Below are positions 27,026 through 34,506 of a stretch of 64,000 nt of DNA, one piece after another. Each line of letters starts with the position of its first letter. Within the stretch, counting starts at the first letter, position 1. The notes beneath the pieces were generated by a model. It worked only from the letters and a program-made list of their open reading frames with translations. It had not been told where the DNA came from and searched no databases. The stretch comes from Lysobacter soyae. GTDB lineage: Bacteria > Pseudomonadota > Gammaproteobacteria > Xanthomonadales > Xanthomonadaceae. A program made the position numbers and the translations under genes. The stretch is from assembly GCF_019551435.1 (NCBI RefSeq), contig NZ_CP080544.1, positions 868,001-932,000 on the forward strand. The letters are read 5' to 3'.

Positions 27026-27577
27026 TTACTGCAACAGACTGGCTCCGGGAACCATCCAAAGGGAAAGGCTTGCCAGCAAGCTGCCGATCACCGTTGCGGC
27101 AGCCACGTCACTGGGATAGTGCAAGCCCAAGATGACGCGCGACAGCGCCACGCTGGCCGTGAACGGGATGAGCAACCAACCCGACATCGGAAAATAGGCC
27201 ATGGCCAGCAGCGTGAATGTCACGGCATGCAAGGTGTGACCGGAAGGAAAGCTGAACTCATCCAGCGGGGCGATCCAGGCTTTGATGGAAATATCCGAAG
27301 CAAAGGGACGGGGTCGACGTGTCCAATGTTTCAGTCCTTTGTAGAGCAGAAGCGAGACGATGCCGGTGGCCGCCAGATGGACGGCGGCTTTGGCACCGGC
27401 GGCACCGAAGAACACGCTGAAGACCACCATCAAGCCATACCAGAAAACGCCGTCGCCCAATCGACTGATCGTCGAGAAGTAGCGCAAAACCAGGGATTGC
27501 CGCCCTAGGGCGTTGGCACGCTTGCACCAACCCCGGTCTTGGGTGAACCAATGATTACGCGACAGCAGAGAGTTCAT
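27026..27577 (-). CDS. PAP2 family phosphatase
   Basis: 183 residues with about five membrane helices. The three phosphatase motifs are present: KHWTRRPRP (KxxxxxxRP, about 84-92), PSGH (about 114-117) and SRVILGLHYPSD (SRxxxxxHxxxD, about 147-158). PAP2 enzymes remove phosphate from lipids such as phosphatidate or undecaprenyl diphosphate. The start at 27577 has a strong AGGAG five bases upstream and lies inside the last 23 bases of the glycosyltransferase gene, so the two are co-translated. With a Pho box ahead of the pair, phosphatidate dephosphorylation to diacylglycerol for glycolipid synthesis is an attractive but unproven role. Confidence 0.9.
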   Translation of the reverse strand: MNSLLSRNHWFTQDRGWCKRANALGRQSLVLRYFSTISRLGDGVFWYGLMVVFSVFFGAAGAKAAVHLAATGIVSLLLYKGLKHWTRRPRPFASDISIKAWIAPLDEFSFPSGHTLHAVTFTLLAMAYFPMSGWLLIPFTASVALSRVILGLHYPSDVAAATVIGSLLASLSLWMVPGASLLQ

Positions 27578-28703
27578 GTGGGCTCCTCTCACGGATCATT
27601 CGCATCAGGATGTCGTCCAAGTCGGACGCGACTTGGGCAGGCTGCAAACGCGCCACCGATTCACGCGCGTTGACGCGCATGGAAGCGCGAAGCTCGGCAT
27701 CGGTCGCGAGGCGGATTGCGGCGTCCACAAAGTTGTCTTCGCCTTTTCCCTCAACAGCAAAGCCGTCAATGCCGTCGCGAAGGTGTTCCTTGGCCGCACC
27801 ATAGCGATAGGCCACCGGCGGAACGCCACTGGCCATCGATTCGATCGTGACGTTGCCGAATGTTTCGGAGTGGCTCGGAAACACAAACATATCGGCGGTG
27901 GCAAAGTGCCTGGCCAAGTCGTCTCCGCGCCGCAGTCCGGCAAACACGAAGTCGGGATTGGCGCGTTCGATGTTTTCCGCTTCCGGACCGACGCCGACCC
28001 AAATGAATTTGGCCGTCGGCTGGCGCCGTTGGATTTCGCGGAAAGTGCGCACGGCCAGCGGTAGATTCTTCTCGGCGGCAATGCGCCCCAGATAAATGAC
28101 CGCAAGGTCGTCCGGGCCCAAGCCCCACGAGGCACGCAAGGTATGGTCGCGCTTGTCGGGACTGAAACGTGCGGTGTCGACCGCCCGCGGTAAATGCGAG
28201 ACTTTGTCAAAGCCCATGGAAATCAGAAAGTCGGCCAATTCACAGGTCGGTACAAGCGTCGCGTCGGAGGCATTGTGGAAGTGCCGCATCCAACGCAGCG
28301 CAAGGGGCTGCAGGAAGGGCACACCGTAGTCCCGCATGTATTGGTCGAAACGCGTGTGAAAACCCGTGGCAAACGGGATGCCGAGTTTCACGGCCGCGCG
28401 TACAGCGGAATAGCCGAGCGGTCCTTCGGTCGCGATGTACAGGGCATCGGGTCGAGACTTCTGCCAACGCTTGCGCAAGGTGCTACCGGCCGGATGCCCG
28501 AAGCGCATGCCGGGATAGCGCGGAATCTCGGAGCTGCGCATCAGCAGTTCGTGCGGCTGACCGGTGGTGTCTTCACCCTGTCGCGGTCGGATGACATCGA
28601 CCGCATGCCCGCGTGCGCGCAGTCCTTTTTCCAAATCTTGCACGGTCAGGGCGACGCCGTTGACTTCCGGCGGGTATGTCTCGGTGACGATCGTGTAATG
28701 CAT
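27555..28703 (-). CDS. GT4-fold glycosyltransferase, probable lipid glycosyltransferase
   Basis: 382 residues, GT-B fold. The N-terminus TETYPPEVNGVALTVQDL is typical of GT4 enzymes that glycosylate lipid acceptors (MgtA-, PimB- and SqdX-like). The C-terminal domain has LGRIAAEKNLPLAV, VGVGPEAENIE, and the nucleotide-sugar motif SETFGNVTIESMASG with the two Glu of ExxxxxxxE. No signal or membrane helix is seen, so it should be a peripheral inner-membrane protein. It overlaps the PAP2 gene by 23 bases. A three-unit Pho box lies 54-82 bases before its start, so expression on phosphate starvation by PhoB is predicted. Sugar donor and acceptor are unknown. Confidence 0.9.
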   Translation of the reverse strand: MHYTIVTETYPPEVNGVALTVQDLEKGLRARGHAVDVIRPRQGEDTTGQPHELLMRSSEIPRYPGMRFGHPAGSTLRKRWQKSRPDALYIATEGPLGYSAVRAAVKLGIPFATGFHTRFDQYMRDYGVPFLQPLALRWMRHFHNASDATLVPTCELADFLISMGFDKVSHLPRAVDTARFSPDKRDHTLRASWGLGPDDLAVIYLGRIAAEKNLPLAVRTFREIQRRQPTAKFIWVGVGPEAENIERANPDFVFAGLRRGDDLARHFATADMFVFPSHSETFGNVTIESMASGVPPVAYRYGAAKEHLRDGIDGFAVEGKGEDNFVDAAIRLATDAELRASMRVNARESVARLQPAQVASDLDDILMRMIRERSPHELSAVA

Positions 28704-28756
28704 GCCCGTAACCCTTGTCTGCTCGGATCATGCTGAATGCCGGGGATGACGGCGGC

Positions 28757-28785
28757 TTGTCAGACGGGTGACAACACCGTGACAG
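28757..28785 (-). promoter_or_regulatory. Pho box upstream of the glycosyltransferase-PAP2 pair
   Basis: On the minus strand three heptamers recur every 11 bases: CTGTCAC (28779-28785), TTGTCAC (28768-28774) and CTGACAA (28757-28763), with spacers GGTG and CCGT. The known PhoB target is CTGTCAT repeats with an 11-bp period. The direction and distance (the last unit ends 54 bases before the glycosyltransferase ATG) suit activation of that gene. The site sits just downstream of the ppx stop codon. Confidence 0.82.
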
Positions 28786-28787
28786 GC

Positions 28788-30299
28788 CTACGTTTGTTTG
28801 ATGTTGAGTTTGATGCCGAGGCCCTTGAGGTCATCGGGTTCGCTCTCCAGATCGGTCTTGAGTAGAGGGCGGTTGTCCAACCACTTGCGGCTGAGTTCCA
28901 AGGTAAGTGTGGTGCCCTTCGCGGTCGCCTTCTTTCGTCTGATGATTTCCGCATCGTGCGAACGATGCAACAAAACCGCAAGACGCAAAAGCAGCACCAA
29001 CCGTTTGGTCGACAAACGAACGCGATCGGGCAGGGCGGCCAAACTCGAACGACTGATAGAGCGCCGCTGGTTCCGGACAATGCAAGCCAGTTGTTGCTGC
29101 TCTTGATAGGTGAAGCCAGAAATGTCCGAGTTTTGCACGATGTAGGCACCGTGTATCTGGTACTGGCTATGCGCGATGGCGAGGCCGGACTCATGAATTC
29201 TCGCGGCCCAAGAAAGCAGGGCTTGTTCGTCGGGTCCCAGTTTCCAGGCTTTGGCGACTTGTCGGAACAGGGCCAGTGCCGTGCGTTCGACGCGCGCTGC
29301 CTGGGCCTTGTCGACCCCGTAACGCTCCATGAGCGCGTCGATGGACAATTCACGCGGATCCACACCGCCGAGACGTCCGGCCATGTCGTAAAGAATGCCT
29401 TCGCGCATCGCATCCTTGCTGACACGCATTTCGCGGATACCCAAGGCCGAAAACGCCGCCTCCAGCACCAAAATGCCGCCGGCGATGACGGGCTTTCGGT
29501 CGGCGTTCAAATCGGGTAGATCGATAGCCTCAATGGACCCGAACGACAAAACGCGATCGCGCAGTGTCCAAAGCGCCACCGGCGTGATTTCGCCGTTGGT
29601 CAACTTCATTTCTTTGCAGACTTTGCCAATCGCCTTGATCGTGCCGGAAGATCCAATAGCTTCGTTCCAGCCCAACTGGCGATAGGCGGTGGCGAACTGT
29701 TGGAACTCCGCGGCCACTTCGATCAAACCTTGACGCCATTTTTTGCGTGTCAACTTGCCGTTATTGAAAAATCTACGGGTGGTCGCCACGCAACCCACTT
29801 GCAAGCTTTCGCGCTCAATCGGCTCAAGGCCTCGCCCGATGATGGTTTCAGTTGAACCACCGCCGATATCCATGACCATACGCAGGCTGTTATCGCGCGT
29901 CGGATTGGCCTGAGCCACGCCCAAGTACACGAGACGCGCTTCCTCACGTCCGGCCACCACTTCAATCCGGTGTCCGAGCGCCGCCTCTGCGCGCACCAAG
30001 AAGGCCTGCGGATCGGCGAGGGCACGCACTGAGTTTGTGGCGAGGGCGCGCACCTGCGTTGCCGGTATGCCTCGAATCCGTTGTCCGAAGCGCTCGAGAC
30101 AGGCAATTGCCCGATCTTCCACTTTGCGGTCCAGATTGCCTTTCGCATCCAGACCTTCGGCCATGCGTACCATCTCGCGAATGCGATCGATGATGCGAAG
30201 CTGGCCGAGCTGTTGCTGCGCGACCACCATGTGGAAACTGTTCGAGCCCAAATCCACGGCCGCCAGCATGTCGCCATTTTTCAAAAGCGGTGTGCTCAA
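28788..30299 (-). CDS. ppx: exopolyphosphatase
   Basis: 503 residues, Ppx/GppA family. It hydrolyses inorganic polyphosphate from the ends, releasing phosphate. ASKHA-fold ATP/phosphate loops: AAVDLGSNSFHMVV (about 13-26) and VMDIGGGSTETI (about 141-152). The C-terminal HD-like domain (after about 315) includes LLSWAARIHESGLAIAHSQYQIHGAYIVQNSD. Length agrees with E. coli Ppx (513). GppA activity on pppGpp cannot be excluded. It starts 21 bases after the ppk1 stop, in the order phoB-phoR-ppk1-ppx. Confidence 0.94.
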   Translation of the reverse strand: MSTPLLKNGDMLAAVDLGSNSFHMVVAQQQLGQLRIIDRIREMVRMAEGLDAKGNLDRKVEDRAIACLERFGQRIRGIPATQVRALATNSVRALADPQAFLVRAEAALGHRIEVVAGREEARLVYLGVAQANPTRDNSLRMVMDIGGGSTETIIGRGLEPIERESLQVGCVATTRRFFNNGKLTRKKWRQGLIEVAAEFQQFATAYRQLGWNEAIGSSGTIKAIGKVCKEMKLTNGEITPVALWTLRDRVLSFGSIEAIDLPDLNADRKPVIAGGILVLEAAFSALGIREMRVSKDAMREGILYDMAGRLGGVDPRELSIDALMERYGVDKAQAARVERTALALFRQVAKAWKLGPDEQALLSWAARIHESGLAIAHSQYQIHGAYIVQNSDISGFTYQEQQQLACIVRNQRRSISRSSLAALPDRVRLSTKRLVLLLRLAVLLHRSHDAEIIRRKKATAKGTTLTLELSRKWLDNRPLLKTDLESEPDDLKGLGIKLNIKQT

Positions 30300-30320: not shown

Positions 30321-32465
30321 TTATTTTTGCGACTTGGCGAGTAATGCGCCTTGCGCGGAGTGCGGCACTTCGCCCGGTCCGGGTGTGCGGCGAACATAGT
30401 GGCCATCCGGCATCAGCTCCCAAGCTTGCGTGTTGTCTGCAAGATAGTTTGCCAGTGTCTCGTCAAAAACGCGTTTGGCCAGTTGCGGATCCAAGATCGG
30501 AAAGCAGGTTTCCACGCGCCGCAAAAGGTTTCGTTCCAGCCAGTCGGCGCTGGAGCAAAAGATCTCCGGCTGATCATCATTGGCGAACCAATAGACCCGA
30601 TGGTGCTCCAGGAAGCGACCGATGATCGAACGCACCGTGATGTTTTCCGATACGCCTTTGATGCCCGGACGCAAAGTGCAAGCGCCGCGCACGATCAGTT
30701 CGATCTTCACACCGGCCTGAGAAGCGCGATAAAGCGCGCGAATCACATTCGGTTCGTTCAACGCATTCATTTTGGCAATGACGTGGCCTCGCTTGCCCGC
30801 CTTGGCGTTTTCGGCCTCGCGTTCGATACGCTCCAAAAGACCGCTGTGCAGGCTGAAAGGCGATTGCAGCAACTTGCGCAATTTGACTTCCGAAGCGAGC
30901 CCTGACATCTGTTGGAAAATCTGGTGCACGTCTTCGGCGATGTCCGGATGGCAGGTCATCAGCCCGATGTCCGTGTAAAGGCGCGCTGTCCCGGCATGAT
31001 AGTTACCCGTCCCCAAGTGCACATAGCGGTTGAGTTTGCCGTTTTCGCGGCGCACGACCAGCATCATTTTTGCGTGCGTCTTGTAACCGACCACGCCGTA
31101 GACGACTTGCACGCCGGCCTCTTGCAAGCGGTCGGCAAATCCCAGATTCGCCTCCTCATCGAAACGCGCAAGCAGCTCGACCACCACGGTCACGTCCTTG
31201 CCGTTGCGTGCGGCATGGATCAACGCATCAACGATGGGCGAGTCCTTGCCTGTCCGATAAAGCGTTTGCTTGATGGCCAACACATCAGGGTCGATCGCGG
31301 CTTGACGCACCATCTCGGGCACTGGGCTGAACGAATCGAACGGGTGATGCAGCAGCACATCGCCCTTTCGCAATGTCTCGAAAATGTTGGTGGTGTCCAT
31401 CTGCCGCGGCTGCATCGGCGGGAACTTCAATTCCGGACGGTTGACCAGGTCATACACTTGTCCGACGCGATTCAAGTTGACGGGGCCATTGATGCGGTAC
31501 ACCGCATTGTCCGTCAGCTCAAAATTTTGCAGCAGCATCCGGGTGATATCTTCAGGACAGCCTTCCTCAAGTTCCAGCCGCACGGCGCGCAGATACCCGC
31601 GTCCGACCAACTCGTCTCGCAATGCGTGGGCGAGATTGTCGACATCGTCATCGTCCATGATCAATTCCGAGTTTCGCGTCACACGGAACTGATAGGCACC
31701 CTTGACCGTCATCCCCGGAAACATTTCGTCAACAAAGGCGGACAGGACCGAAGACAGAAAAACGAAATCGTGGAAGGACTCGCCATCGCCATCGGCGTCC
31801 GGCATCCGGATGATGCGAGGCAGTGAGCGCGGCGCGCGCACCACAGCCAAGTGGCCTTCGCGCCCGAACGCATCGCGGCCCTCAAGCACCACGACGACGT
31901 TCAAGGTCTTGTTGAGAATCTTCGGGAAGGGGTGTGCAGGATCCAAGCCGAGCGGTGAAAGCACCGGCATGATCTGTTCGCGAAAATACGCGCGAAGCCA
32001 TTCGCGCTGCGCCTCGGTCCACTGGTTTTGTTCCGGCAAATTGATGCCGGCGTCAGAAAGGGCGGGCTTCAACGCGTTGTAAAAGCAATCGTACTGATCG
32101 TGAACCAGCTCGGCGGCGCGCGCATGGATTTGTTTGATCAGGGTCGAATAGGCGCGACCATCGCTACCTGCGGCCAAATCCAACTGTTCCGCATGCCGCA
32201 CGCGGCCCGCGCGAATCTCGAAAAACTCGTCCAGATTCGTGCAGGAAATGCACATGTATCGAAGGCGCTCCAGAAGCGGAACGTCGGTGTTGTAAGCCTG
32301 ATCCAAGACGCGGAAGTTAAAGTCGAGCTGGGACAGCTCGCGGTTCGCATACAAGCCGCTGTCATGCAGTGCGCGCGGGTCGGATTCCGTCACGGCCCGA
32401 TTCTCTACACCGGTGAGATGGTGTGGACTTGGCGCGGCACCACGCGATTTGCGTTCAGATGACAT
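30321..32465 (-). CDS. ppk1: polyphosphate kinase 1
   Basis: 714 residues. PPK1 makes polyphosphate from ATP through a phosphohistidine. The N-terminal domain begins at YANRELSQLDFNFRVLDQA (near 38). The catalytic part has KTHAKMMLVVRR, with the phosphorylated His, and HLGTGNYH 19 residues later, matching H435/H454 of E. coli. A good AGG ribosome site five bases upstream supports the ATG at 32465, which places the first 61 bases inside phoR. The first 35 residues are poorly conserved in character and may be an unstructured leader. It stands in a polyP and phosphate-control operon. Confidence 0.95.
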   Translation of the reverse strand: MSSERKSRGAAPSPHHLTGVENRAVTESDPRALHDSGLYANRELSQLDFNFRVLDQAYNTDVPLLERLRYMCISCTNLDEFFEIRAGRVRHAEQLDLAAGSDGRAYSTLIKQIHARAAELVHDQYDCFYNALKPALSDAGINLPEQNQWTEAQREWLRAYFREQIMPVLSPLGLDPAHPFPKILNKTLNVVVVLEGRDAFGREGHLAVVRAPRSLPRIIRMPDADGDGESFHDFVFLSSVLSAFVDEMFPGMTVKGAYQFRVTRNSELIMDDDDVDNLAHALRDELVGRGYLRAVRLELEEGCPEDITRMLLQNFELTDNAVYRINGPVNLNRVGQVYDLVNRPELKFPPMQPRQMDTTNIFETLRKGDVLLHHPFDSFSPVPEMVRQAAIDPDVLAIKQTLYRTGKDSPIVDALIHAARNGKDVTVVVELLARFDEEANLGFADRLQEAGVQVVYGVVGYKTHAKMMLVVRRENGKLNRYVHLGTGNYHAGTARLYTDIGLMTCHPDIAEDVHQIFQQMSGLASEVKLRKLLQSPFSLHSGLLERIEREAENAKAGKRGHVIAKMNALNEPNVIRALYRASQAGVKIELIVRGACTLRPGIKGVSENITVRSIIGRFLEHHRVYWFANDDQPEIFCSSADWLERNLLRRVETCFPILDPQLAKRVFDETLANYLADNTQAWELMPDGHYVRRTPGPGEVPHSAQGALLAKSQK

Positions 32466-33727
32466 GTAAACCTGCTCCCTTTGCCGACGTCACTTTCGAT
32501 TTCCAATGTGGCGTCATGATGGTTCAAAACGTGTTTGACGATGGACAAGCCCAAACCGGTGCCGCCCGATTCCCGTGATCGGCTGTTCGATACACGGTAG
32601 AAACGTTCGGTGATGCGCGGAATCTGCGCTTCCGGAATACCGTAGCCGCTGTCTATGACACTGAGTGCCACGCCTTCGCCATCGCGATTGAACTCGATGT
32701 CGATCTCGCCCCCGACTGGGGTATATCGCACCGCGTTACTGACGAGGTTCGAAAATGCGCTGTGCAATTCCTTGTTCGAACCCCATAGGTCCACTTCGGC
32801 ATTGTCCACCACGCGTATCTTGTGCCGTCCGCGGCTCAAGGCTTCCGCTTCGCGCCGCAGCGCCGCGAGCATGAAAGGCATGGAAACAACGTCCTCGTCC
32901 GAATGCTCTTGGGCTTCGAGACGTGAAAGTGTCAGCAGATCTTCGACCAATTGGTTCATGCGCTGGGATTGCTGGCGCATCTCGGCAAACATGCGCGCGC
33001 TCTCCGGGTCATCCTCGCCGTCAAGCATGTCGAGATAGCCGTGCAACACGGTCAAAGGCGTTCGCAGCTCATGCGACACATTGGCCACGAAATCCTGGCG
33101 CATTTGTTCGAGATGCATCAGTTTGCTGACGTCGCGCGCGATCAGAATGCGCGCATCGTCTGCGTAAGGAATGATCTTCATCGCCAAGTGGACGCTGGAG
33201 TTCACCGGAGAAATTTCGTCCAGCAACGGCTCCGGATTTTGATTGACGTCGAGCCAGTCGGGCACGCTCAAATAACGCAAGTGCGCTTCCAGCGACGAAC
33301 CGATGTCACGCGGATAGACAAGTCCCAGGAGCTCGGTCGCCGCTTGGTTGAACCATTCGATCTCATTGCGCTTGCGCGAAATGATCACGACGGCATCAGG
33401 CAGTGCGGCACCGGCCTTGCCGTAAGCGCGCAACATGGACACCAAGCGTTTTTTGCGGGAGCGCACTTCCTGATGGTGGCGCGCAAGCAAGCGCAGCAAC
33501 TCGTTCCAAACACCACCGCCCACCGGTGCACGGGTGATGGCCCGTGCGTTGAGGTGATGAAGAATGGCGCGCAACTGCCAGTAGTGCCATGCGACAACGC
33601 CGAGTGCGGCAATCGCCAACATCATCCAAATATGCCCGGTGAGCATGCCGATCAAGAGCGCGCACGCAATCGCAAACGCCAGCGGAAGTAGCGTTTTCAT
33701 CCAAGCGGATCGGATCTCAGGTGACAT
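32405..33727 (-). CDS. phoR: phosphate regulon sensor histidine kinase PhoR
   Basis: 440 residues. Two N-terminal membrane helices (about 13-32 and 34-50) are followed by a short HAMP-like linker, a PAS domain (about 105-200, starting LPDAVVIISRKRNEIEWFN) and the kinase core. The H-box is SHELRTPLTVLHGYLD (His near 217), then the N-box LVSNAVRYTP, DSGYGIPE and GTGLGLSIVKH. It phosphorylates PhoB when phosphate is low. No large periplasmic sensor is present, as in E. coli PhoR, which senses through the Pst system. The pst and phoU genes are not in this window. The 3' end overlaps ppk1 by 61 bases. Confidence 0.94.
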   Translation of the reverse strand: MSPEIRSAWMKTLLPLAFAIACALLIGMLTGHIWMMLAIAALGVVAWHYWQLRAILHHLNARAITRAPVGGGVWNELLRLLARHHQEVRSRKKRLVSMLRAYGKAGAALPDAVVIISRKRNEIEWFNQAATELLGLVYPRDIGSSLEAHLRYLSVPDWLDVNQNPEPLLDEISPVNSSVHLAMKIIPYADDARILIARDVSKLMHLEQMRQDFVANVSHELRTPLTVLHGYLDMLDGEDDPESARMFAEMRQQSQRMNQLVEDLLTLSRLEAQEHSDEDVVSMPFMLAALRREAEALSRGRHKIRVVDNAEVDLWGSNKELHSAFSNLVSNAVRYTPVGGEIDIEFNRDGEGVALSVIDSGYGIPEAQIPRITERFYRVSNSRSRESGGTGLGLSIVKHVLNHHDATLEIESDVGKGSRFTCHLNANRVVPRQVHTISPV

Positions 33728-33730
33728 GCC

Positions 33731-34432
33731 TTAGGTCGACGTCGAAAAACGGTATCCGGCACCACGGACCGTCTGCACCATTTGGTCCAATGCATGCGGC
33801 TCGAGGGTCTTGCGCAAACGTCGGATGTGAACATCGACGGTGCGTTCTTCGACGTAAACACTGCCACCCCAAACATGGTCGAGCAATTGCGACCGCGTAT
33901 AAACGCGCTCGGGATGGGTCATGAAGAAATGCAGCAAGCGATATTCGGTCGGGCCAATCGAAACCGGCACTTGTGCGCCGTCCACCGTGGCGAATACCCG
34001 GTGTCCTGCACCGTCAATGCGAATGGCGCCGACGGCGACGTTGCCTTCTTCGTCGTCTTCGCGCGTACGGCGCATGACCGCACGGATCCGCGCAAGCAAT
34101 TCCCGCGAGGAGAACGGCTTGACCACATAGTCGTCGACGCCGGCTTCAAGCCCGGACACGCGGTCGTTTTCTTCGCCGCGCGCGGTCAGCATGATGATCG
34201 GAATTTCGCGGGTGAGGGCGTCCTTGCGCCAGCGGCGGGCTAGGTCGAGCCCGCTGGTGCCGGGCAACATCCAATCCAACAAGATCAGGTCCGGAACGAA
34301 ATCTGCAATTGCCGTTTGCGCCTCGCGTGCGTCGCCTGCGGCCACCGGCTCGAACTCGGCTTTTCGCAGGGCAAAGGCCACCATGTCGCGGATGGCAGGT
34401 TCGTCATCGACTATCAGTATTCGCTTCTGCAC
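33731..34432 (-). CDS. phoB: phosphate regulon response regulator PhoB
   Basis: 233 residues: receiver domain (1-120) with acidic pair in ILIVDDEP, phospho-acceptor Asp in LILLDWMLPG (near 54) and the conserved Lys in VVKPFSSRELL; then an OmpR-type winged helix (about 130-230) ending VHIRRLRKTLEPH...VQTVRGAGYRF. The activated form binds Pho boxes, and a four-unit box is present 35 bases before this start, so the gene should be autoregulated. Three bases separate it from phoR. Confidence 0.96.
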   Translation of the reverse strand: MQKRILIVDDEPAIRDMVAFALRKAEFEPVAAGDAREAQTAIADFVPDLILLDWMLPGTSGLDLARRWRKDALTREIPIIMLTARGEENDRVSGLEAGVDDYVVKPFSSRELLARIRAVMRRTREDDEEGNVAVGAIRIDGAGHRVFATVDGAQVPVSIGPTEYRLLHFFMTHPERVYTRSQLLDHVWGGSVYVEERTVDVHIRRLRKTLEPHALDQMVQTVRGAGYRFSTST

Positions 34433-34466: not shown

Positions 34467-34506
34467 ACTACAGTTTAGTGACAGTGTCATGACAGTGTCA
34501 TGGACG
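34467..34506 (-). promoter_or_regulatory. Pho box, four 11-bp-phased units, upstream of phoB
   Basis: Read on the minus strand: CGTCCAT (34500-34506), CTGTCAT (34489-34495), CTGTCAC (34478-34484) and CTGTAGT (34467-34473), spaced by GACA, GACA and TAAA. The two central units match the PhoB consensus fully and the outer ones partly. A -10-like GATATT follows at 34448-34443. Location 35 bases before the phoB ATG, in the 91-base gap after the M48 peptidase gene, indicates PhoB autoregulation. Confidence 0.9.

Follow-up and report, generated by a model that had tools for sequence, protein, structure and literature searches.

A candidate Pho-controlled GT4 glycosyltransferase-PAP2 phosphatase operon in Lysobacter soyae with a probable role in phosphate-starvation lipid remodelling

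In a 64,000-nucleotide stretch of the Lysobacter soyae genome (contig NZ_CP080544.1, positions 868,001 to 932,000; hereafter the window), the gene for a GT4 family glycosyltransferase (GT) overlaps a gene for a PAP2 phosphatase and is preceded by an array of Pho-box repeats. We put at roughly 0.6 the probability that the two genes form a PhoB-induced operon for the synthesis of a phosphorus-free glycolipid, beside an olsF-plcP-like operon found elsewhere in the same genome (2.14 Mb, one contig). A part played by the pair in phosphate-starvation lipid remodelling is in itself rather likely, since Pho arrays, conserved pairing, and PlcP-like and ornithine-lipid-type neighbours all support it; that PAP2 supplies the diacylglycerol for this purpose falls just short of an even chance. 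We infer PhoB binding, the acceptor, the sugar donor, the PAP2 substrate and the activity of the PlcP-like protein from sequence.

The Pho box and its conservation

A preliminary description of this DNA had pointed out three CTGTCAC-like heptamers with an 11-bp period before the GT4 gene. They are indeed present, and there are actually four in exact register, reading CTGTCAC-ggtg-TTGTCAC-ccgt-CTGACAA-gccg-CCGTCAT on the minus strand from 28785 to 28746. The third heptamer is separated from the start codon of GT4 by 53 bases, a gap that contains the fourth. Scored with a hand-set heptamer weight matrix based on the E. coli Pho-box consensus, the four-repeat array reaches 28.5, the best value in the window on either strand, followed by a separate array before phoB (23.0); the best unrelated site in the window scores 14.2. 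Maxima of 150 simulated 64-kb windows (first-order Markov) averaged 16.3 with a highest value of 24.7, and none attained 28.5 (0/150). Individual two-repeat matches (18 bases, at most three mismatches) are not unusual by themselves (15 in the window versus 12.3 expected), and the unusual feature is the run of heptamers in register rather than the number of two-repeat matches. On sequence grounds, Pho control of the GT4-PAP2 pair through PhoB binding appears very probable. A loose genome-wide pattern allowing three mismatches was rejected for listing the regulon as too unspecific (135/134 matches versus 106/99 in the reversed control). Pho-like repeats were also seen at L036:1501-1571 (genome C1, about 66736-66806), just before an open reading frame (ORF) that by eye starts like the undecaprenyl-diphosphatase UppP/BacA and is a possible member of the Pho regulon.

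The same box was found before the orthologous pair in related genomes, a check that the preliminary description had suggested. In a first set, made up of the 30 best loci of the search (that in the window and 29 from relatives), a three-repeat array at p ≤ 0.01 is present in 29, the exception being L029 (p 0.18); in 28 of the 30, the highest-scoring array begins 77-86 bases ahead of the GT start. A second, named set comprises the best 80 of 579 candidate Lysobacteraceae loci encoding a relative, from one collection scan; it shares several genomes with the first, and the two sets therefore overlap. It covers Lysobacter, Pseudoxanthomonas, Luteimonas, Thermomonas and Stenotrophomonas, as well as Xanthomonas with weaker boxes; Lysobacter enzymogenes (L102) and Luteimonas granuli (L108) are among the species that carry the pair. 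Upstream scans used 79 of these loci (L125 had too little sequence), and arrays reaching p ≤ 0.01 precede the GT gene in 71/79 with 200 bases upstream and in 66/79 with 250 bases; arrays in relatives mostly begin 77-92 bases upstream of the GT start. Within the 120 bases before the GT gene, the mean best score is 15.3 at period 11, compared with 5.9-7.8 at the remaining seven periods in the range 8-15. With 200 bases upstream, arrays at the same threshold precede phoB in 34/39 relatives, versus a total of 3/200 for six control genes (ppx 1/56, ppk 0/23, phoR 1/46, M48 0/8, rlmJ 1/51, CDF 0/16). Before PAP2 itself they occur in 3/80 named loci. The Pho array thus marks the GT-PAP2 operon and phoB, and not the region as a whole.

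Pairing and distribution of the two genes

The 23-base overlap between the GT4 and PAP2 genes, reported in the preliminary description, agrees with the confirmed gene coordinates and likely leads to translational coupling. An alternative PAP2 start may be a GTG at 27592, upstream of the ATG. Among 60 genomes of relatives, a GT ortholog is found in 40, and PAP2 is adjacent on the same strand in every one of them (40/40; match-to-match gap -34 to 104 bases). PAP2 follows GT in all 80 named loci, with an overlap, by projected query start, of 23 bases in 42 (a start codon is present at that point in 31 of them) and of 4 bases in 16. A PAP2 relative is present in three of the 20 relatives that have no GT (G038, G041, G051). 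G038 shows another arrangement of the pair at G038:C112:8718-10261, where a far-group GT (36% identity; groups are defined below) is divergent from a PAP2 relative (41%). A Lysobacteraceae-like phoBR-ppk-ppx-GT4-PAP2 locus also occurs in a record titled Tolypothrix campylonemoides, a cyanobacterium (L131), and is probably a contaminant contig.

The pair is dispensable within the genus, because GT and PAP2 orthologs are missing in 7 of 17 same-genus genomes (G000-G016). Two of the seven (G002 and G010) are less than 90% complete. None of these genomes (G001, G002, G005, G009-G012) has GT4, PAP2 or a strong PlcP-like match, as if the lipid-remodelling set had been lost as a unit.

Identity of the enzymes

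The GT4 protein carries the motifs TEGPLG, FHTRFD, GRIAAEKN and FPSHSETFG; TEGPLG, GRxAxEK and FxSx[ST]ET[FY]G are conserved in 80/80 relatives and FHTRFD in 71/80. Its predicted model has a GT-B fold (pLDDT 90.6), with MshA and BshA as nearest solved structures and the lipid glycosyltransferase PimA at rank 25. Donor motifs and a catalytic His (H116) are present as in the SAR11 diacylglycerol GT, for which both are described in PMC8231724. In a tree of 41 GTs, from which a GpgS row at a contig edge (L209) was left out, five Agt-like rows, labelled by neighbourhood and motif with no named Agt included and comprising one GT linked to UDP-sulfoquinovose synthase, form a 100/100 group without this GT4. 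Eight GpgS rows form a separate 100/100 group. GT4 falls with near-group rows outside both, and the near group is not one clade (18% of bootstrap trees). An Agt identity was rejected on the basis of a Glu at the position of the catalytic Asp, the lack of Trp at a presumed column and the tree position. Identity as GpgS, the GlcNAc-phosphatidylglycerol synthase, was rejected from its profile score, the separate tree group and the lack of an adjacent deacetylase, and that as the alpha-monoglucosyldiacylglycerol synthase Mgs from 105.9 bits against a cut-off of 400 (NF049988).

The PAP2 protein contains the PAP2 catalytic motifs KX6RP, PSGH and SRX5HX3D, together with membrane-type helices, and all three motifs are found in 80/80 relatives. 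Structure matches of its model (pLDDT 88.1) place B. subtilis PgpB (YodM) first, LpxE fourth and E. coli PgpB fifth, with acid phosphatases ranked between the membrane PAP2 enzymes; a sequence profile search ranks E. coli PgpB first. The protein is accordingly predicted to be a membrane lipid phosphatase of the PAP2 superfamily, similar to PgpB and LpxE.

PlcP-like genes and sources of diacylglycerol

The host genome encodes an unlinked PlcP-like protein (C1:562617-563441) that is 39-45% identical to five PlcP-like neighbours of GTs elsewhere. The label denotes homology among metallophosphoesterases beside Agt-like GTs; NCBIfam has no PlcP model that matches the PlcP-like proteins, and LpxH and other phosphoesterase profiles match them below cut-off. 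The gene overlaps the end of olsF, whose product matches NF052615 at 631.6 bits (cut-off 620), and in 16 genomic stretches containing a PlcP-like gene, OlsF stands in front of it in 12. Seven of these 12 olsF-plcP-like operons are preceded by a Pho array at p ≤ 0.01, all seven of them among the 11 relatives. Because this operon is present, the idea that PAP2 acts in place of an absent PlcP is ruled out for the host and becomes one of PAP2 beside PlcP, and PAP2 need not be the sole source of diacylglycerol. The lipid-remodelling role put forward in the preliminary description is well backed by conservation and gene neighbourhoods; what changes is its contrast of PAP2 with PlcP, since the host has a PlcP-like gene too.

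Strong PlcP-like matches are found in 37 of the 60 relatives, 32 of which have GT. The eight GT-bearing relatives (8/40) without PlcP-like all have PAP2 beside GT, and six of them are at least 95% complete. One same-genus genome has a PlcP-like match split across two frames (G013:C1:120591-121302), either a decaying gene or an assembly error. A draw of 150 Lysobacteraceae genomes at least 95% complete contains GT in 127 (with identity of at least 52% in 125, and of 41% in G296 and G406) and PlcP-like in 85 (with at least 66% in 80 and 40-45% in five). All 85 PlcP-like genomes carry GT, and none of the 23 GT-less ones has PlcP-like (Fisher 3e-10, with kinship ignored). Within the family PlcP-like thus appears to need GT, and GT appears not to need PlcP-like, as 42 of the 127 GT-bearing genomes are without it; PAP2 was not searched in all 42. 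The same 42 genomes make a PAP2-based supply of diacylglycerol plausible.

Gene neighbourhoods in other Gammaproteobacteria

A draw of 232 genomes across the class gave a GT match at E ≤ 1e-35 in 58, and loci were taken for the best 30 matches. GT matches outside the family fall into a near group with 40-49% identity (22 loci, L153-L174) and a far group with 30-40%, mostly 35-39%. In the near group, PAP2 lies inside the 1.5-kb flanks of GT in 16/22 loci and a Pho array at p ≤ 0.01 stands before GT in 11/22. Near-group GTs adjoin PlcP-like genes in L157, L163 and L167, a gene resembling lyso-ornithine-lipid acyltransferase in L155 (149 bits, below the cut-off of 300), and in L164 an ORF that by eye starts like UDP-glucose dehydrogenase (Ugd). 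Far-group GTs adjoin a PlcP-like metallophosphoesterase in L175, L177 and L179, an acyltransferase-GNAT gene of the ornithine-lipid type in L176, and a UDP-sulfoquinovose synthase-like gene in L178 (345 bits, below the cut-off of 575). At L176:1333-3861 the Agt-like GT has a Pho array and is divergent from the acyltransferase-GNAT gene. At L178:1-2580 the UDP-sulfoquinovose synthase-like gene is directly downstream of an Agt-like GT gene with a Pho array, and a PlcP-like stretch lies at the edge; this is a candidate phosphate-controlled sulfolipid operon in a gammaproteobacterium.

For seven longer stretches, gene order was established and the arrays were compared with 200 simulations of the stretch in question. 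In G090 (L217), GT4, PlcP-like and PAP2 follow in this order on one strand, with arrays before GT4 (18.6, 0/200 simulations) and directly before PAP2 (17.9, 0/200). G144 (L220) has an array (19.3, 0/200) between divergent PAP2 and PlcP-like genes, and G131 one before GT4-PAP2 (16.9, 0/200). G049, from another family of the order, has ppk, ppx, GT4 and PAP2, then PlcP-like on the opposite strand, with a weak array before GT4 (14.2, 43/200). The best array of G271 is 1.6 kb away from GT, and the stretches of G071 and G148 hold no notable Pho array. Judged by these orders and arrays, a number of genomes, though not every one, have PAP2 and PlcP-like under shared regulation with GT or close to it. 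Among 23 GT-bearing genomes of the class, 11 have both PAP2 and PlcP-like, eight PAP2 only, four PlcP-like only and none neither; a source in all 23 would be expected with a probability of 0.154 under independent losses, which is not significant.

Genomic context in the window

Pfam and NCBIfam profiles bear out the earlier statement that the pair directly follows phoB-phoR-ppk1-ppx on the minus strand (Table 1). Ten neighbouring proteins were scanned, and the flanks of the pair hold the RlmJ, Ppx and Ppk genes. NCBIfam exopolyphosphatase models match Ppx below their cut-offs. The box before phoB serves as a positive control for the motif.

Table 1. Coordinates of the genes and Pho boxes discussed in the text (window positions unless a contig or locus is given)
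Feature	Position	Strand	Remark
PAP2 phosphatase gene	27026..27577	minus	183 aa from ATG
GT4/PAP2 gene overlap	27555..27577	minus	23 bases
GT4 glycosyltransferase gene	27555..28703	minus	382 aa, GT-B fold
Four-heptamer Pho box	28746..28785	minus	11-bp period, directly after ppx stop codon
ppx (exopolyphosphatase family), upstream neighbour	28788..30299	minus	Ppx/GppA by Pfam, over cut-off
ppk1 (polyphosphate kinase)	30321..32465	minus	TIGR03705, over cut-off
phoR sensor kinase	32405..33727	minus	TIGR02966, over cut-off
phoB response regulator	33731..34432	minus	TIGR02154, over cut-off
Pho box before phoB	34467..34506	minus	positive control
olsF-plcP-like operon	C1:560899-563444 (L192:2900-5445)		OlsF over NCBIfam cut-off

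Proposed role and alternative explanations

At low phosphate, phosphorylated PhoB would bind the four-repeat box, and GT4 would be co-expressed with the overlapping PAP2 gene. The PgpB/LpxE-like PAP2 enzyme may then dephosphorylate phosphatidate (or a related lipid phosphate), which would otherwise become phospholipid, and so provide diacylglycerol for GT4. At the inner membrane face, GT4 would move a sugar from a UDP-sugar, with glucose or glucuronate the most likely donor, onto this diacylglycerol. In the host, the PlcP-like phospholipase C and the ornithine-lipid synthase, co-encoded elsewhere, could add a second diacylglycerol stream and a second phosphorus-free lipid.

Several observations weigh against this proposal. 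The SAR11 enzyme (GTcp) needs Asp256, with D256E losing more than 90% of activity (PMC8231724), and all 80 relatives have Glu at that position; at the presumed GTcp W320 column Trp is missing in three Lysobacterales rows, GTcp itself being outside the alignment. The best NCBIfam profile of GT4 is that of GlcNAc-phosphatidylglycerol synthase (NF053787, 130 bits, cut-off 480). NCBIfam matches of PAP2 are mixed and all below equivalog cut-offs, and undecaprenyl diphosphate (C55-PP) and phosphatidylglycerophosphate (PGP) are further substrates of such PAP2 enzymes. The Pho arrays are uneven as well: among the GT arrays with least support are those of L127 and L144, the two Xanthomonas loci (both p 0.06), of L112 (p 0.12) and of L145 (p 0.19), 11 of the 22 near-group loci, which belong to other families, have no GT array at p ≤ 0.01, the host's own olsF-plcP-like operon has a weak array (10.5, p 0.22), and 5 of the 12 such operons miss the threshold. 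Five of the 37 PlcP-like genomes of the wider order, from other families, are without this GT (G041, G043, G051, G052, G053), although in four of the five a GT of the far group adjoins PlcP-like. Finally, the co-occurrence counts ignore phylogeny, and the genome sets overlap.

The main rival is that PlcP makes the diacylglycerol for GT4, and that PAP2 has another task, such as dephosphorylation of undecaprenyl diphosphate or PGP for phosphate recovery or envelope synthesis. The PlcP-like gene of the host speaks for this, as do the presence of GT in every PlcP-like genome of the family, the sub-threshold similarity of PAP2 to undecaprenyl-diphosphatases in all 36 members scanned, and the four class genomes of 23 with GT and PlcP-like and no PAP2 relative. 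We nevertheless consider it unlikely, as a strong PlcP-like match is lacking in 8/40 relatives, 42/127 family genomes and 8/23 class genomes that have GT, the eight relatives and the eight class genomes concerned all carry PAP2, and the gene that PAP2 overlaps is GT and not an envelope gene.

Glycosylation of phosphatidylglycerol or another phospholipid by GT4, as by GpgS, would alter membrane charge and save no phosphorus. The NF053787 profile favors it to some degree, in that seven GTs of the group score 130-157 bits with it, compared with 73-88 for three Agt-like GTs and 63 for the UDP-sulfoquinovose-linked one. These scores are nonetheless far under the cut-off, GpgS sequences form their own tree group, and the ten neighbouring proteins include no deacetylase. 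GpgS-type matches occur together with this GT in G082, G131, G199, G212 and G271 (over the cut-off in all except G199), and glycosylation that retains phosphorus fits poorly with Pho control and PlcP-like neighbours, so that we judge this reading improbable. Less probable again is action on a non-glycerolipid, namely ceramide, a polyprenol carrier or lipid A, with GT adding a sugar and PAP2 removing phosphate in the manner of LpxE. The PAP2 fold does resemble LpxE, and PMC6445935 reports that C. crescentus forms a glycosphingolipid when starved of phosphate; the neighbourhoods, in contrast, point to glycerolipid and ornithine-lipid genes, with no search aimed at sphingolipid genes.

Relation to known systems and significance

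The closest known system is PlcP-Agt remodelling in Phaeobacter, SAR11 and P. aeruginosa (PA3219/PA3218/PA0842), as given in excerpts of PMC4796936 and PMC8528852. The preliminary description had assigned this route to Alphaproteobacteria; the route exists, but it is not confined to them, with PlcP-type remodelling in P. aeruginosa (PMC8528852). Shared features are a Pho-box-controlled lipid GT of the GT4 family, the association with PlcP-like and ornithine-lipid-type genes, and the motifs TEGPLG, HT, GRxAxEKN and FPSx[ST][DE]TFG. The present GT differs in lying outside the Agt-like group and in having Glu for the catalytic Asp, and its operon partner is PAP2, with PlcP unlinked or not found. 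PAP2 shares the membrane fold and three catalytic motifs with enzymes of the PgpB, YodM and LpxE type, and differs in scoring below every NCBIfam equivalog cut-off and in its tie to a GT gene and Pho control. GpgS (P. aeruginosa PA4311; excerpts of PMC12713373) is broad GT4 kin and gives the best, sub-threshold profile, whereas it forms a separate tree group, is co-present in some genomes and has no deacetylase (GpgD) partner here.

In plants, phosphatidate phosphatases and a non-specific phospholipase C feed glycolipid synthases during phosphate-starvation galactolipid remodelling. The two parallel sources of diacylglycerol are alike; the enzymes are unrelated, and the likeness is one of analogy only.

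In the literature searched, with most subscription literature outside the search, no paper joined PAP2, phosphate limitation, diacylglycerol, glycosyltransferase and membrane lipid. None joined Pho box, PAP2 and glycosyltransferase, titles and abstracts for Xanthomonas, Lysobacter and Stenotrophomonas gave nothing on the GT4-PAP2 pair, and no dedicated phosphatase gene under Pho control and linked to a glycolipid GT was found. The sole match joining PlcP, phosphatidate phosphatase and lipid remodelling was PMC4796936. According to that paper, diacylglycerol comes from phosphatidate dephosphorylation or from phospholipase C, and phosphatidate phosphatases seem to be absent from two marine strains; its text on six plcP contexts names no PAP2. 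The idea of phosphatidate dephosphorylation is therefore already in print, and what sets the present operon apart from PlcP-Agt is its separate group of GTs, its other partner gene and an occurrence that extends beyond the family.

We tentatively suggest, at somewhat less than even odds, that Gammaproteobacteria hold a second, PAP2-based route to diacylglycerol, a Pho-controlled GT4-PAP2 operon with its own group of GTs. This route would divert new phosphatidate, and that of PlcP would draw on phospholipids already present. Some species would run both in parallel and others the PAP2 route alone; the latter could make up as much as a third of GT-bearing Lysobacteraceae (42/127 without PlcP-like). 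The literature searched frames bacterial phosphate-starvation glycolipid remodelling around PlcP as the source of diacylglycerol. If the suggestion is true, surveys that count plcP alone would miss remodelling species, and a new group of lipid glycosyltransferases would be there to characterise. Species with the pair and without PlcP make the PlcP-independent route directly testable.

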